From Halichondria panicea (Eukaryota > Porifera > Demospongiae > Suberitida > Halichondriidae), in NCBI RefSeq assembly GCF_963675165.1, contig NC_087377.1, forward strand, positions 17,030,518-17,094,517: DNA of 64,000 nucleotides. Direction: 5' to 3'. The translations under genes were made by a program, and so were the position numbers. The notes under the pieces are model-generated. The model had not been told where the DNA came from. It ran no database searches and was given only the letters and a program-made list of their open reading frames with translations. Below are positions 6,455-63,656 of this stretch, one piece after another (within the stretch, counting starts at the first letter, position 1; every line of letters begins with the position of its first letter).

Positions 6455-9175
6455 ATGTCTGACTATCTCACAATAGCAGATCTAAAGAGATTGTACCTCG
6501 TCACGTTTGATGCTCGAATTAAGTGGCGAAACATCTTGCTTATTCTTGACATACCCTCTGATACCATCGACAGCATTGGGAGAGATTGCTGGGAAGATGT
6601 TGTCAAAGCTTTGTCAAGTCCTATCGTGGGTGAAGTTCACATAGCCAAGACCATCGAGAAAGATCATCCTAGTGCAAGCAATCCTAAATTACAGGGTAAG
6701 TACCAATGGCACATTATTACATGATTAGACATTTCAACCCTCATGCACACAATATTCTACAGTTGACCAAAACCGCCAGAAGATCAACGATGATTTGACT
6801 GTTTTCCTAGACGAACCTCTCGGTAAAGGTGCATTTGGAGCAGTCTTCAAAGGCAGTTACAGGGGCGAGATATGTGCAGTCAAAGTGCTGCTTCACGATG
6901 CTATGGAGATGCAGGCAAGTATTCCAGTCGGCAAAAACGAAGAAGCTAGCGATGCAATTGATCGTGAAAGTGATTTTCTCAAGTCATTCCAGCACCCAAA
7001 CGTTGTTCAGTTTTTGTCGACTGCCAAGCACCCCAAATCAGGAAGTACAATCCTTGTTGTTGAGCTGATGAATTGCAGTCTGAGATCCTATTTTTCTAGC
7101 CTTGATGAAGAGTCCCTCACTAGCGAATGTGAAATTAGCCTTTCCAAAGACATAGCTTGTGGTATGGCCTACATTCACAGCAAGCAGATTATCCATCGTG
7201 ACCTCTGTGGTGATAACGTCTTACTGAAGCTTGCACGACCAGTGCCTGTCGCAAAGATATCCGACTTTGGCATGTCACGGCTATACGATCCCTCAGAGCT
7301 TAGCCACACCCTCACAGCCATTGGTCACCGTATGGGGTATCTACCTCCTGAGGCTATTCGATTGGACAAGGATAATTACGATAATAGCTTGGATGTGTTC
7401 TCTCTTGGGGCGATTATGATGCAGATTGTTTGCAAGCTGAAGACGATCAAATCTGTGGAAGATCGATCATTCCATGTTGCCCAGATCCCTCACACACACA
7501 GGTTGAGGAAGCTTATCGACAGTTGTTTGCAAGAAAACATGAGGAGGAGACCATCTGCCAGGGACATCTGTGAGTCAGTGTGTTTTACGTTTTCCTAACC
7601 CTAACGAAAAAATCATAATGTTGGTATCGATTTTCTTTTACTTTAGATGCTGACCTGACAAGAGGCTCAGACCCAGTGGAGGCAACAAAGAGGGAGGCAA
7701 AGGACCCTCAACTAGTCAAGAAGGTGCGTACATGTAGTGTGATAATGAGATTCCCACAGCAACAATAGTATTGTACCTTAACATGCATGGATGCTGTCTC
7801 ATGTGTTAAGCCGTAACTACACATCCGTTTGAGTGTGCCTATAATTATGTACTTCCTTTAGCAGAAATTGTTGCTTGTTCTCGTTCTGTTGTAGAATTTC
7901 CACTAATGATATTCACGTCTGTGTTTTAATTCAAAGATTTCCACCAACGTTCCTCTGTACAGGCACACAGTGAACAGATTAGGCACAAAGATCCTGAGCT
8001 GGTCAGGAGAGGCGTCATCATTCAACAGCAGAGACAGGTGAGACAAAATGCACCATTATATTATTGCAGAGCTTAAGTAGAAGCTTTGATCTCTTATAAT
8101 CGTACTGTACATTCTATTAGACTGGTGGGCTTGGCCTCTTAAGCTAATGAGAGAAAGTGATTTAGTGTGCATGCAATTAATGCTACAAGTAACACTTGCT
8201 TGTTAGTAGACACTATCCTAATTACACTCATTCATTATTCAGGGTCCCCCTCCCAGAGAGTTGAGACCTCCACTCACTCTGGAATGGAGAAAAGGAAAAG
8301 ACATGCCAATCAAGATGGGCTACTCGGTACAGAGTGTTGTTATCGGTGACACGGTGTATGTTGGTGGAGGTGATGCAGGCGATGATCGTAATAGCTGTAC
8401 AGTGATGAAGCTCGAGCAAGATCAATGGACCGAACTACCAGAGTACATTGCCTACTGGTTCGCTATGACATCACTCGCTAATCGACTAGTGCTGGTGGGA
8501 GGAGGAATTGATCCAAAAAACAAGAAACGCACCGATGAGCTTGCAGTGTTTGAGTCAGGGGAATGGATTCACCCGTACCCACCTATGAACATTGCTCGTT
8601 CTTCCTCAACAGCTGTCTCCTTCAACAACCACATCATTGTAGCTGGTGGGCGTGATGATGAAGGACATGCCCTCTCCTCTGTGGAGGTGTTGGATGTGGC
8701 ATCAAGAAGATGGTGCATTGCTCAGTCACTACCTAACCCACGATCAGAACTGAAATCAACTCTCATAGGAAACACCCTCTACCTAATGGGAGGGTACGAT
8801 CACAATGGGAGTGCAACCACAACAGTGCATCACGTCGACCTCGATGAACTAATTGCAAAAGCCCCTTCCCACCAGGACACATCCACTCTCTGGCAGACCT
8901 TACAGGAAGTACCACTCGTGTGGTCAGCTCCTCTCAGTATTGGGAAGTCACTATTAGCCGTTGGTGGAGCGGACGACAGAGCCAACCTAAGTTCATTGAT
9001 CCACCTCTACCAGCCTGACACCAGGAGGTGGGTGAAAGTGGGAGACCTGCCTACTGCACGATATTGCTGCACATGCTCAGTACTTCCTAGTGGAGAGGTC
9101 ATTGTAGCCGGAGGACAGACAAATTCACATACTAATGTTATTACTCAAACCGTGGATTTCTTCTCTATAAAATAA
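6455..9175 (+). CDS. Gene 1: (truncated) death fold - kinase - Kelch
   Basis: Five coding exons that splice in frame: 6455-6695, 6763-7569, 7647-7723, 7963-8037, 8243-9175 (710 residues). A 5' non-coding exon ending at 6356 (donor TAATCA|GTGAGT) is likely. Residues 1-80 are a death-like domain starting MSDYLTIADL, but 22 residues present in the other copies (after IGRD) are missing, removing the middle helices. The kinase has every key motif: GKGAFGAVF, Lys121, HRD Asp227, Asn232, DFG Asp248, LPPEA, RRRP. A charged linker (about 350-400) leads to six Kelch blades, each with a GG doublet (401-710). Death plus kinase recalls IRAK/Pelle; the Kelch addition is unusual. Retrotransposon and TIR sequence ends at 6241, so the promoter seen in the paralogues is replaced here. 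Confidence 0.8.
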
Positions 9176-9620
9176 TGATTAGTTAGTGTTTCTCTTTGTA
9201 GTGTTAATGATCTTGATATTTTTTATCTGTGAGAAAGCTTTTCTATTTGTTAAGTTGCAACAGAATTTCATCGTAGTTAATATGAAGTGGCATGTAGACA
9301 TGCAGACAAAACGGTTTACAAACTGTTGATTTCTTCTCTATAAGTGCTAATTAGTTAATTATTTTGTTAATTGCTTCTCTTTATATTTGTGCGATGAGTT
9401 TATAACGATATTGATATTCTTTTATCATGTTGAGAAATTAAGTTGCAACAGAATTTTATCGCATATATTATTATGATGACATGAAGTGGTACATACATAA
9501 TTACATTGGCAGAAAATAGTACAAAAACAGACAAAATAATATTTAACAGTCTTATAACAAGTTCAGGTTCATAACAAGTTCAGGTCCTTAGTTGAGGTCT
9601 TGTAAGAAGTGTACAATAGT
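9176..9620 (+). other. 3' flank of gene 1 with duplicated tail
   Basis: Two diverged copies of the Kelch-gene tail lie in tandem: the words GATTTCTTCTCTATAA, TTAGTTA and GCGATGAGTTTATAACG occur just after the stop and again at about 9330-9430. At about 9560-9600 there is a decayed copy of the last exon of the convergent minus-strand gene seen at 41938-42056. No gene of its own. Confidence 0.5.
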
Positions 9621-61224: not shown

Positions 61225-63656
61225 ATGTCTGACTATCTCACAATAGCAGATCTAGGAGATCTATACATAGCTACGTTTGATGCTCGAATCAAGTGGAGAA
61301 ACTTCTTGCTAGTTCTTAAAATACCCTCGGATATCATTGACAGAATTGGGAAAGATTGGAGCAACAATCCTGATGACTGCTATCGTGAGGGTTTGAAAGA
61401 ATGGCTGAAGGGTGAAGAGAGAAGCTGGGAAGATGTTGTCAAAGCTTTGTCAAGTCCCATTGTGGGCCACAGTGACATAGCCAAGACCATCGAGAAAGAT
61501 CATCTACAGTCTACTGATGCAAGCAATCCTACTGATGTGAAGTCAGAGGGTAAGCACTAGTTCAACACAGGAATGCATATCTCATACATGATGCTTAGTT
61601 TATTAGCTAGCTACTATAATATTCACCCGGGTCCCTCTCATAAACACACACACACACACACACACACACACACACAATGTTTTTACAGTTGACGAAAATC
61701 ACCAGAAGATCAACGATGATTTGACTGTTTTCCTAGACGAGCTACTAGGTAAAGGTGCATTTGGAGCAGTCTTCAAAGGTAGCTACAAGGGCGAGATTTG
61801 TGCAGTCAAACTTCTAATTTACGAGGCTGTAGAAATGCAGACAGGTTTCCCAACAGGAAAAAGTGAAGAAGCCAGCAAAGCATTTGATCGTGAGTGTGAG
61901 TATCTCCAGTCACTCCAGCACCCAAACGTTGTTCTGTATTTGTCGACTGCCAAGCATCCCAAATCAGGTGGTACAATCCTCGTTGTTGAGCTGATGGATT
62001 GCAATCTGAGATCCTATTTCTCTAGCCTTGATGAACAGTCTCTCACTAGCAAATGGGAAATTAGCCTCTCCAAAGACATGGCTTGTGGTCTGGCCTACAT
62101 TCACAGCAAGCAGATTATCCACCGTGACCTCTGTGGCGATAACGTCTTGCTGAAGCTTACACGACCAGTGCCTGTCGCAAAGATATCCGACTTTGGCATG
62201 TCACGGCTATACGATCCCTCCAAGTTTAGCCACACCCTCACAGCCATTGGTCACCGTATGGGGTATCTACCTCTCGAGGCTATTCGATTGGGCAAGGAGA
62301 ATTACGATAATAGCGTCGATGTTTTTTCCCTTGGGGTGATTATGGTACAGATTGTTTGCAAGCTGAAGACGATCAAATCTGTGGAAGATCGATCATTCCA
62401 TGTTGCCCAGATACCTCACACACACAGGTTGAGGAAGCTTATCGACAGTTGCTTGCAAGAAGACATGAGGAGGAGACCATCTGCCAGGGACATCTGTGAG
62501 TTAATTAAATAATTAATGTGTTTTACATTATAATAATACCGCAAATAATTTGTGAGTCAATTGTATCTTGTATATACGATTTCGAAATTTTGTTCAGAAA
62601 ACGTTCCTTATTGAAGATTTAACTTTTACTTCAGATGCTTCACTGACAAGTGACTCTGATACAGTGGAGGCAACAAAGAGGGAGTCCAAGGACACTCAAG
62701 TAAAACATCAAGTATCTGAGAAAGACACTCATTCACAAGCATCTATCGATCGGCTTCAAGCTAAGCAAGTTTGTGGACTAGAAGAAGTGATCACTCCTCA
62801 ACAAGAACAGTTTGAAGTTCAACCCAGAGAAATTGATCATCTAGTGAAGTCTCTACAGATACAACCTCGGGAGAACACTCAACCAGATAATAAATTGACT
62901 GCAGATGTTGACCTTACAAGTGGCTCGGACACAGTGGAGGCAACAAAGAGGGAGTCAAAGGACACTCAACCAGTCAAGAAGGTGCCTACATGTAGTGTGT
63001 GAATGAGATTCCCACAGCAACAATAGTATTGTACCTTAACATGCATGCATGGATGCTGTCTCATGTGTTAAGCCGTAACTACACATCCGTTTGAGTGTGC
63101 CTATAATTATGTACTTCCTTTAGCGGAAGTTGTTTCTTGTTCTCGTCCTGTTGTAGAATTTCAATATTAACGTCAGTGTTTTAATTCAAAGATTTCCACC
63201 AACGTTCCCCTGTACAGGCATACAGGGAACGGATTGAGCACAAAGATGCTGAGCTGGTCAGGAGAGACGCCATCATTCAACATCAACATACCAGTAAGAA
63301 AGTGCCGTTTGGTCGACAGGTTATGATCATTAATTTGTCCTGTGCCTGATCATGTTAATCCTCGTGTATAATTCAGTGCCTGTGTAGTTGATACTGTGTA
63401 GTTGATGTAATTGTAGCACCAACTCAGACTTAACAGTTTATAATATCTCCAATGGTTGGTTTTTTATGTCGCTTATAAAGAATACTTTTACTTTTTGGCC
63501 CAATATTTTTCTTGAGGTGAATTGTCCTCTGTTACAGTAATGGAAGATGTGTGTAAGAAGACTGGAGTGAGGGACCAACAACTAGATCAAGAAGTCCCTG
63601 AGAGTGACATCATTCTAATCGCGGAGAAATTTCCTCACCTGCTGAACGTGCACAAG
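61225..63656 (+). CDS. Gene E: death - kinase - death fold, 3' end beyond window
   Basis: Exons 61225-61549, 61689-62495, 62635-62981, 63218-63293, 63538-63656 splice in frame (558 codons so far) and are the same exons as in gene D. The death-like domain is complete (DDCYREGLKEWL, SWEDVVKAL). The kinase has GKGAFGAVF, AVK, HRDLCGDN, DFGMSRL and a normal-length activation segment (LPLEAIRLGKENY). The linker again holds the SDTVEATKR unit twice. The last exon in view (VCKKTGVRDQQLD...FPHLLNVHK) corresponds to the start of the second death fold of gene D; the remaining exons would lie past 64000. Sequence and intron matches to D are close up to about 63805, after which they differ. It is the better preserved of the D/E pair. 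Confidence 0.8.

Follow-up and report, generated by a model that had tools for sequence, protein, structure and literature searches.

How animals without antibodies recognize many microbes and foreign cells is an open question, which is sharpest in sponges, since these animals filter bacteria and keep symbionts. A stretch of 64,000 nucleotides from the demosponge Halichondria panicea (NC_087377.1, our G000:C1:17030518-17094517 in an assembly of 131.46 Mb), hereafter called the window, contains genes that join a death-like domain, a kinase and a Kelch propeller. The main point of the analysis, which is invisible from the window alone, is that the propeller is hypervariable on one side.

A sequence-only reading of the window had proposed four genes, starting at 6455, 38822, 45843 and 61225, with matching exons joined in frame at good splice sites, two of them ending in a Kelch propeller and two in further death folds. 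Our gene models, hand-built from conserved splice sites in genomic DNA, agree on the four genes (hereafter A to D, all on the plus strand) and on their common plan, in which the exons for a death-like domain and a kinase are followed by short linkers and a variable end; the kinase is clearly recognized by Pfam, and the joins are in frame with GT/AG sites throughout genes A and B and up to the fourth exon in C and D. The Kelch C-terminus of A and B is equally borne out, by their matches to Pfam Kelch_1 (1.4e-24 and 3.8e-30, respectively) and by a confident AlphaFold2 model of the gene B exon (predicted local distance difference test or pLDDT 91.5, predicted template modelling score 0.90), in which six strand repeats are seen by inspection and whose nearest structures are KLHL20, KLHL3, KLHL12, designed Kelch proteins and KEAP1. 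The further death folds stand for gene D, in which two of them are present in an open version outside the window (locus L024); in gene C the second death-fold exon shows indels relative to L022 and L024 followed by a stop ending at 49081; because of these changes, gene C is probably a pseudogene. Overlooked in the four-gene picture were the surrounding array and a fifth gene, named K1, the seven exons of which join in frame at GT/AG sites and place the same Kelch exon behind a different kinase; no death domain was found in it.

We then counted the relatives of these exons in the whole genome, the numbers being lower bounds drawn from the best-scoring candidates only. The analysis retained 116 of 146 kinase matches (28 at 63% identity or less and two split fragments were dropped), 48 of 150 matches to the K1 kinase (at least 84% identity), 52 of 150 matches to the last death fold (at least 71% identity; the query had I for V as its first residue), 122 N-terminal death exons among those listed and all 128 Kelch matches listed from 464 candidates (at least 78% identity). 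At least 70 of the 116 kinases of the death family are followed on the same strand by a Kelch exon, at a median spacing of 694 bases, and 66 of these loci have a listed death exon too, while the K1 kinase precedes a Kelch exon at no fewer than 34 loci. A second death-domain module follows the family kinase at eight or more loci, a minority on account of which a death-fold C-terminus was rejected as the rule of the family. In about 100 genes a kinase is coupled to a Kelch propeller, in many cases together with a death domain. Another 38 kinases have no listed C-terminus, and some of these do have a Kelch exon, since the Kelch listing covers the best-scoring candidates only; it is present, whole or interrupted, in L015, L017, L020 and L027.

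Most copies lie in the array at C1:15.48-17.39 Mb, which holds at least 81 kinases, 30 K1 kinases and 102 Kelch matches and is mirrored: every one of them is in minus orientation as far as 16.14 Mb and in plus orientation from 16.49 Mb onwards, the switch falling in between. The region C6:0.41-0.81 Mb adds at least 13 kinases, 14 K1 kinases and 18 Kelch matches. A divergent paralogue on C12 (L047), with 58% identity in the kinase and 48% in the Kelch, keeps the order of death domain, kinase and Kelch, and for this reason the fusion is, as judged from the sequences, older than the recent expansion. Identical Kelch exons also exist, for instance in L012 and L063, and unpurged haplotypes could inflate the copy count. 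Viral contigs gave 32 pattern matches and no relative, and the contigs of prokaryote genomes (searched with a query carrying one extra I at its start) only eight distant kinases of 24-30% identity. As a separate observation, a canonical Death domain lies directly upstream of two family kinases, G000:C28:39634 and C6:731163 (64.8 and 54.7 bits).

The integrity of the copies was examined by reading the DNA at 32 kinase loci, including the minus-strand L002, L003, L007 and L008. A full-length kinase exon is present in 30 of them, with donor GT in 30/30, acceptor AG in 27/30, the DFG motif in 30/30 and the HRD motif in 29/30. The Kelch exon was found in 28 of the 32 loci, some of these exons being cut by the end of the locus, and L008 has one whole Kelch exon. 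The death exon is full-length in 27 loci (once with a stop) and partial or not found in the other five, among which L016 starts inside the kinase.

Selection was then estimated from 55 distinct Kelch exons arranged in 27 disjoint pairs (the four minus-strand loci were left out here, as in the tree described below). The ratio of non-synonymous to synonymous change, or omega, is 1.84 (1.60-2.15) for the BC and DA loops, which form one face of the propeller, as against 0.65 (0.44-1.02) for the AB and CD loops of the other face and 0.43 (0.35-0.52) for the strands together with the N-terminus. All-pairs ratios within each kinase chassis are 2.02 versus 0.47 (28 copies) and 1.93 versus 0.43 (22 copies). 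Controls of 12 disjoint pairs each gave an omega of 0.30 (0.23-0.36) for the kinase and 0.38 (0.32-0.48) for the death exon. Pairwise dN/dS, computed as a ratio of means, comes to 0.14 in the K1 kinase (6 copies), 0.31 and 0.34 in the family kinase and the death exon (24 copies each), 0.48 in the second linker (35) and 1.11 in the whole Kelch (36). The mean non-synonymous difference in the BC loops is 0.253, versus 0.020 for the upstream intron of the same copies. Up to 13 different residues occur per position, and the 45 most variable codons include 29 in BC and 12 in DA loops; none of 307 circular shifts of the loop mask attains the observed mean entropy (1.07), the best one coming close with 1.01. 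On these sequence comparisons, diversifying selection acts on one face of the propeller, which is different in almost all copies read.

The variable residues follow a regular pattern around the second G of each GG: entropy peaks 15-16 residues ahead of this G, again at the residue that immediately follows it, and from +3 to +8. Relative to the same G, we take the ligand contacts of KEAP1 to be at -16, -15, +1, +3, +6 and +8. The 36 positions equivalent to these contacts have a mean entropy of 1.74 bits versus 0.32 elsewhere (maximum of the shifted sets, 1.08) and account for 22 of the top 30 codons by variability, with 3.5 expected, an overlap for which the hypergeometric p is only indicative because the sites are not independent. 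Positions +5 and +7, outside this contact list, are variable as well.

Phylogenetic analysis of the Kelch exon indicates that it does not stay with one kinase. In a tree inferred by maximum likelihood from 57 exons (one outgroup and 56 family members, out of the 128 listed) the label of the death-kinase chassis needs 17 changes, the shuffled mean being 19.4 and 76 of 500 shuffles being as low, and that of the K1 chassis needs 15 changes, with a shuffled mean of 17.6 and 55 of 500 shuffles as low; strongly supported branches alone force at least six label changes. The Kelch exons of both kinase types are intermixed nearly at random, which shows a shared and exchanged cassette. The exchanged piece includes linker, intron and Kelch, because both chassis have in common the linker exon and the intron behind it. 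The mean difference of this intron over both chassis is 0.020 (29 copies, four more being excluded for length) and that of the next intron upstream 0.048 (16 copies). A value of 0.095 for upstream diversity was rejected as intron divergence, since the alignment mixed introns of different length, and the 3' flank (0.255) aligns too poorly to be used. Within the propeller, the distance matrices computed for the six blades show a weak correlation with one another (mean r 0.19 versus 0.44 for interleaved codon sets; nearest neighbours shared in 155/825 versus 213/825 cases), which points to recombination also between blades. The death-fold end behaves similarly, in that C10 and C13 hold dozens of matches to the final death fold of genes C and D (71-95% identity among the rows kept). 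In the one C10 locus read (L045), this fold stands in the same module order behind a P-loop protein with no clear Pfam match (Roc E 0.22, Rab-like E 0.24 or worse). The proposal of a chassis with exchangeable C-termini, made from the window, is therefore upheld by the Kelch tree and by this module.

Taken together, the family is probably a large germline-diversified set of cytosolic sensor kinases with a putative role in immunity or allorecognition, in which the Kelch face would bind ligand. In the mechanism that we propose, the C-terminal Kelch would bind varied peptides or proteins in the cytosol through its BC/DA face, binding would free or cluster the death domain, the N-terminal death domain would assemble receptors or adaptors, and the conserved kinase would be the signal output. 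The Kelch exon moves between the two kinase chassis together with the linker exon and the intron that precede it, probably through recombination or gene conversion, so that both would draw on one pool of binding faces. The minority copies, whose extra death folds also occur on another chassis, could have an adaptor role within these assemblies. The likeliest driver of the diversity would be molecules of microbes or parasites, and allorecognition the main alternative. A more specific proposal, which we consider plausible if not quite probable, is that of an inherited immune or allorecognition repertoire with the Kelch beta-propeller as the variable domain and a variable exon traded between two kinase chassis. 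One or two residues per DA loop and several per BC loop would then vary over a fixed six-blade scaffold, and recognition and output might evolve separately, as in a modular germline analogue of variable regions on signalling stems. If this were true, Kelch propellers would join LRR, immunoglobulin, B30.2 and SRCR among the variable recognition folds, and exon exchange between chassis would be a way to rewire outputs without loss of specificity. The locus already gives candidates for the question raised at the beginning, namely a single scaffold that stays fixed, two to three dozen hypervariable positions mapped on it, and two kinases as outputs.

Several results weigh against the sensor-kinase interpretation. 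The motif-based loop map was drawn after the sliding-window result had been seen, and the counts were for this reason repeated with loops taken from the DSSP assignment of the structural model, a map independent of the sliding window; omega is then lower than with the motif map for the BC and DA loops, at 1.62 (1.37-1.88), with 0.46 (0.32-0.69) for the AB and CD loops and 0.54 (0.43-0.67) for the strands with the N-terminus. Over all pairs, the AB turns alone have a pN/pS, the ratio of non-synonymous to synonymous differences per site, of 1.61 (pN 0.036, pS 0.023, 16 columns) and the Kelch N-terminus alone of 1.31, both ratios being unsteady because of few synonymous changes. Recombination does take place inside the Kelch and is left out of account by the pairwise counts, and the N-terminal domain, which matches Pfam Death under the cut-off (E 0.04), gives a six-helix model of modest confidence (pLDDT 63.8). 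Broken copies are also present among the 32 loci, comprising two kinases with stops, one cut short and the death exon with a stop, in addition to three interrupted Kelch exons (L015, L020 and L027) and gene C. Furthermore, synonymous sites are raised in the loops (pS 0.10 versus 0.06 in strands), which selection explains via linkage only. This increase and the whole-Kelch dN/dS reported above would suit a situation with no selected diversity, in which constraint is relaxed, or hypermutation acts locally, while gene conversion keeps the rest uniform. We regard such a situation as very unlikely, since the loop omega above 1 is beyond what relaxation can give and in the loops the nucleotide diversity of codon positions 1 and 2 (0.195 and 0.220) is almost double that of position 3 (0.117), whereas in the strands position 3 is highest; moreover, 127 of the 128 Kelch matches listed have no in-frame stop, even if the listing favours good matches.

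Other alternatives accept the selection and differ in the ligand. Hypervariable propellers that tell self from non-self sponge tissue, not microbes, would leave the same signature in loop omega and in the KEAP1-equivalent positions, and large tandem arrays would suit such an allorecognition locus. However, no signal peptide or membrane segment was noticed by eye in the models of genes A to D (no predictor was run), so that surface contact would need a partner, and about 100 copies per genome exceed what is usual for allorecognition loci, which makes this explanation unlikely. The Kelch could instead pick endogenous substrates for phosphorylation, in the manner of F-box/Kelch or KLHL proteins in ubiquitination and with no immune role, and the substrate-binding propellers of KLHL20, KLHL3, KLHL12 and KEAP1 are indeed among its nearest structures; yet sustained omega above 1 over the whole face, with the number of residues per position given above, would be unusual for conserved self partners, and we consider diversified substrate adaptors quite unlikely. 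Finally, the fusions have been read from genomic DNA, and 20 of the 128 listed Kelch exons are without a listed upstream partner (a further four have a death exon and no listed kinase among the matches; the partner of the 'orphan' exon in L046 was sought and not identified), as would be expected if the Kelch exons were separate genes and the models wrong. This possibility appears extremely slight, given that the order is kept in two chassis, in the divergent paralogue L047 and in at least 70 copies, and that splice sites hold in the loci read, with the Kelch exon starting at an acceptor AG in 28/28 cases. A set of cytosolic sensor kinases with a ligand-binding Kelch face is therefore the interpretation that we retain.

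Coordinates of the family genes and their parts, in positions of the window
Feature	Position	Strand	Exons or parts	Content	Basis
Gene A	6455..9175	+	6455-6695, 6763-7569, 7647-7723, 7963-8037, 8243-9175	death domain (minus 22 residues), kinase, short linkers, Kelch	gene model, Pfam, splice sites
Gene B	38822..41758	+	38822-39146, 39243-39326, 39377-40183, 40283-40359, 40552-40626, 40832-41758	death domain, kinase, linkers, Kelch	gene model, Pfam, Kelch structure model
Kelch exon of gene B	40832..41755	+	BC loops after each GG (residues 44-51, 88-97, 136-143, 183-192, 241-249, 290-297); DA loops before each A strand	hypervariable loops	structure model, diversity counts
Fifth gene (K1)	29460..32780	+	29460-29570, 29653-30222, 30478-30804, 30871-31083, 31165-31311, 31580-31642, 31848-32780	different TK/TKL-type kinase, coiled coil, same Kelch exon	in-frame join with GT/AG sites
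Gene C	45843..49637	+	45843-46167, 46351-47148, 47284-47636, 47869-47944, 48189-48307, 48941-49206 (frame broken, stop ends 49081), 49387-49637	death domain, kinase, linker, further death folds	
Gene D	61225..63656	+	61225-61549, 61689-62495, 62635-62981, 63218-63293, 63538-63656	runs past the window into open death-fold exons, L024:4792-5468	
Shared cassette, as on the K1 chassis	31395..32780 (start approximate)	+	intron end, linker exon, 205-base intron, Kelch exon	same stretch in genes A and B	

Between the kinase genes of the window sit minus-strand copies of another gene (34000-38000, 42800-45500 and 56900-60900), presumably a USF-like transcription factor of the bHLH-zipper type, which seem part of the duplicated unit; its long exon gives short matches in the first two copies and a full-length one in the third (57038-57895). 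Elsewhere in the window there are an open frame of 1088 amino acids resembling by eye a retrotransposon reverse transcriptase (2712-5978), opposite-strand frames with short internal repeats and a cysteine end that looks like a PHD finger (13415-14227 and 17275-18201), plus-strand exons that look like ankyrin repeats plus a coiled segment and may belong to another death-fold gene (50100-55520), and a CA repeat of about 460 bases (58356-58816). Outside it, two further dense clusters, both with upwards of 20 listed kinases of 45-52% identity to the K1 kinase, lie at G000:C3:0.87-1.71 Mb and C11:4.4-6.5 Mb, and silicatein-like exons at C2:658823-660310 are 65-95% identical to a demosponge silicatein (other long matches, 31-53%), in support of a demosponge genome.

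Among known systems, IRAK/Pelle was the one to which the sequence-only reading had compared these genes. The resemblance stands in so far as an N-terminal death domain is followed by a kinase of tyrosine kinase or tyrosine kinase-like type (TK/TKL), with IRAK4 among its nearest solved structures, but the comparison goes no further, these structures being a mixture of TK and TKL types. The hallmark of IRAK kinases is a tyrosine gatekeeper; at the aligned position, the one family kinase that was compared with an IRAK4 fragment has valine. When the N-terminal model was searched with Foldseek, the first 31 of 36 rows were death-domain entries (the best with E 0.015 and no row reaching 0.001), with FADD as the top death fold and a Pelle-Tube entry at rank 30, and no IRAK or MyD88 death domain among the 36 rows. 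Membership of IRAK/Pelle was rejected on the basis of the gatekeeper and of this FADD-like fold; the C-terminal Kelch and the roughly 100 copies are additional differences. With KLHL proteins and KEAP1 the family has in common a Kelch of the six-blade type with GG repeats, the variable codons falling at the presumed KEAP1 contacts, whereas it differs by the absence of BTB and BACK among Pfam matches to E 1 in three full proteins, by a kinase in place of a ubiquitin-ligase adaptor and by the hypervariable face. Pfam matches to E 1 likewise include no NACHT or LRR, in contrast to NLR proteins.

The sequence-only reading had also held that a kinase with Kelch or extra death folds is not a standard animal architecture. 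Among the papers listed by searches of an open-access library, we recognized no description of the death-kinase-Kelch architecture or of a hypervariable sponge Kelch repertoire, although the predicted proteins may already sit in public annotation; however, Kelch plus kinase is not unheard of, since a figure legend lists Kelch among the domains of Eph-like kinases of unicellular holozoans, namely choanoflagellates and a filasterean (PMC6993872). That legend mentions no death domain and its section no diversified family. Microbial signals are reported to alter the expression of a 'Kelch motif containing gene', of death-domain genes and of kinases in two sponges (PMC6208332), and families of Kelch-type propellers and kinases differ with niche in a third sponge (PMC11000336); the relevant parts of these articles report the domains separately, with no joined protein or family. 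The pertinent part of another article mentions sponge NLRs and does not contain 'kelch' (PMC4850255), and plant F-box/Kelch genes are the subject of a passage elsewhere (PMC10037820).

What we describe here would belong with the large, diversified families that resemble receptors, and its variable fold and its output would both be new among them. Nematode F-box/BATH and plant F-box/Kelch genes also form large diversified families, and we know of no diversified receptor family that joins death domain, kinase and Kelch, or that shares a recognition cassette between two kinase chassis. With these nematode and plant families, as with the NLRs of zebrafish and fungi and the sponge SRCR proteins, the present one has in common a lineage-specific expansion and, as described for some of them, selection on the recognition part. 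Many tandem copies, as in the C1 array, and positive selection confined to one face, here deduced from sequence, are the features that liken it to a diversified recognition repertoire.

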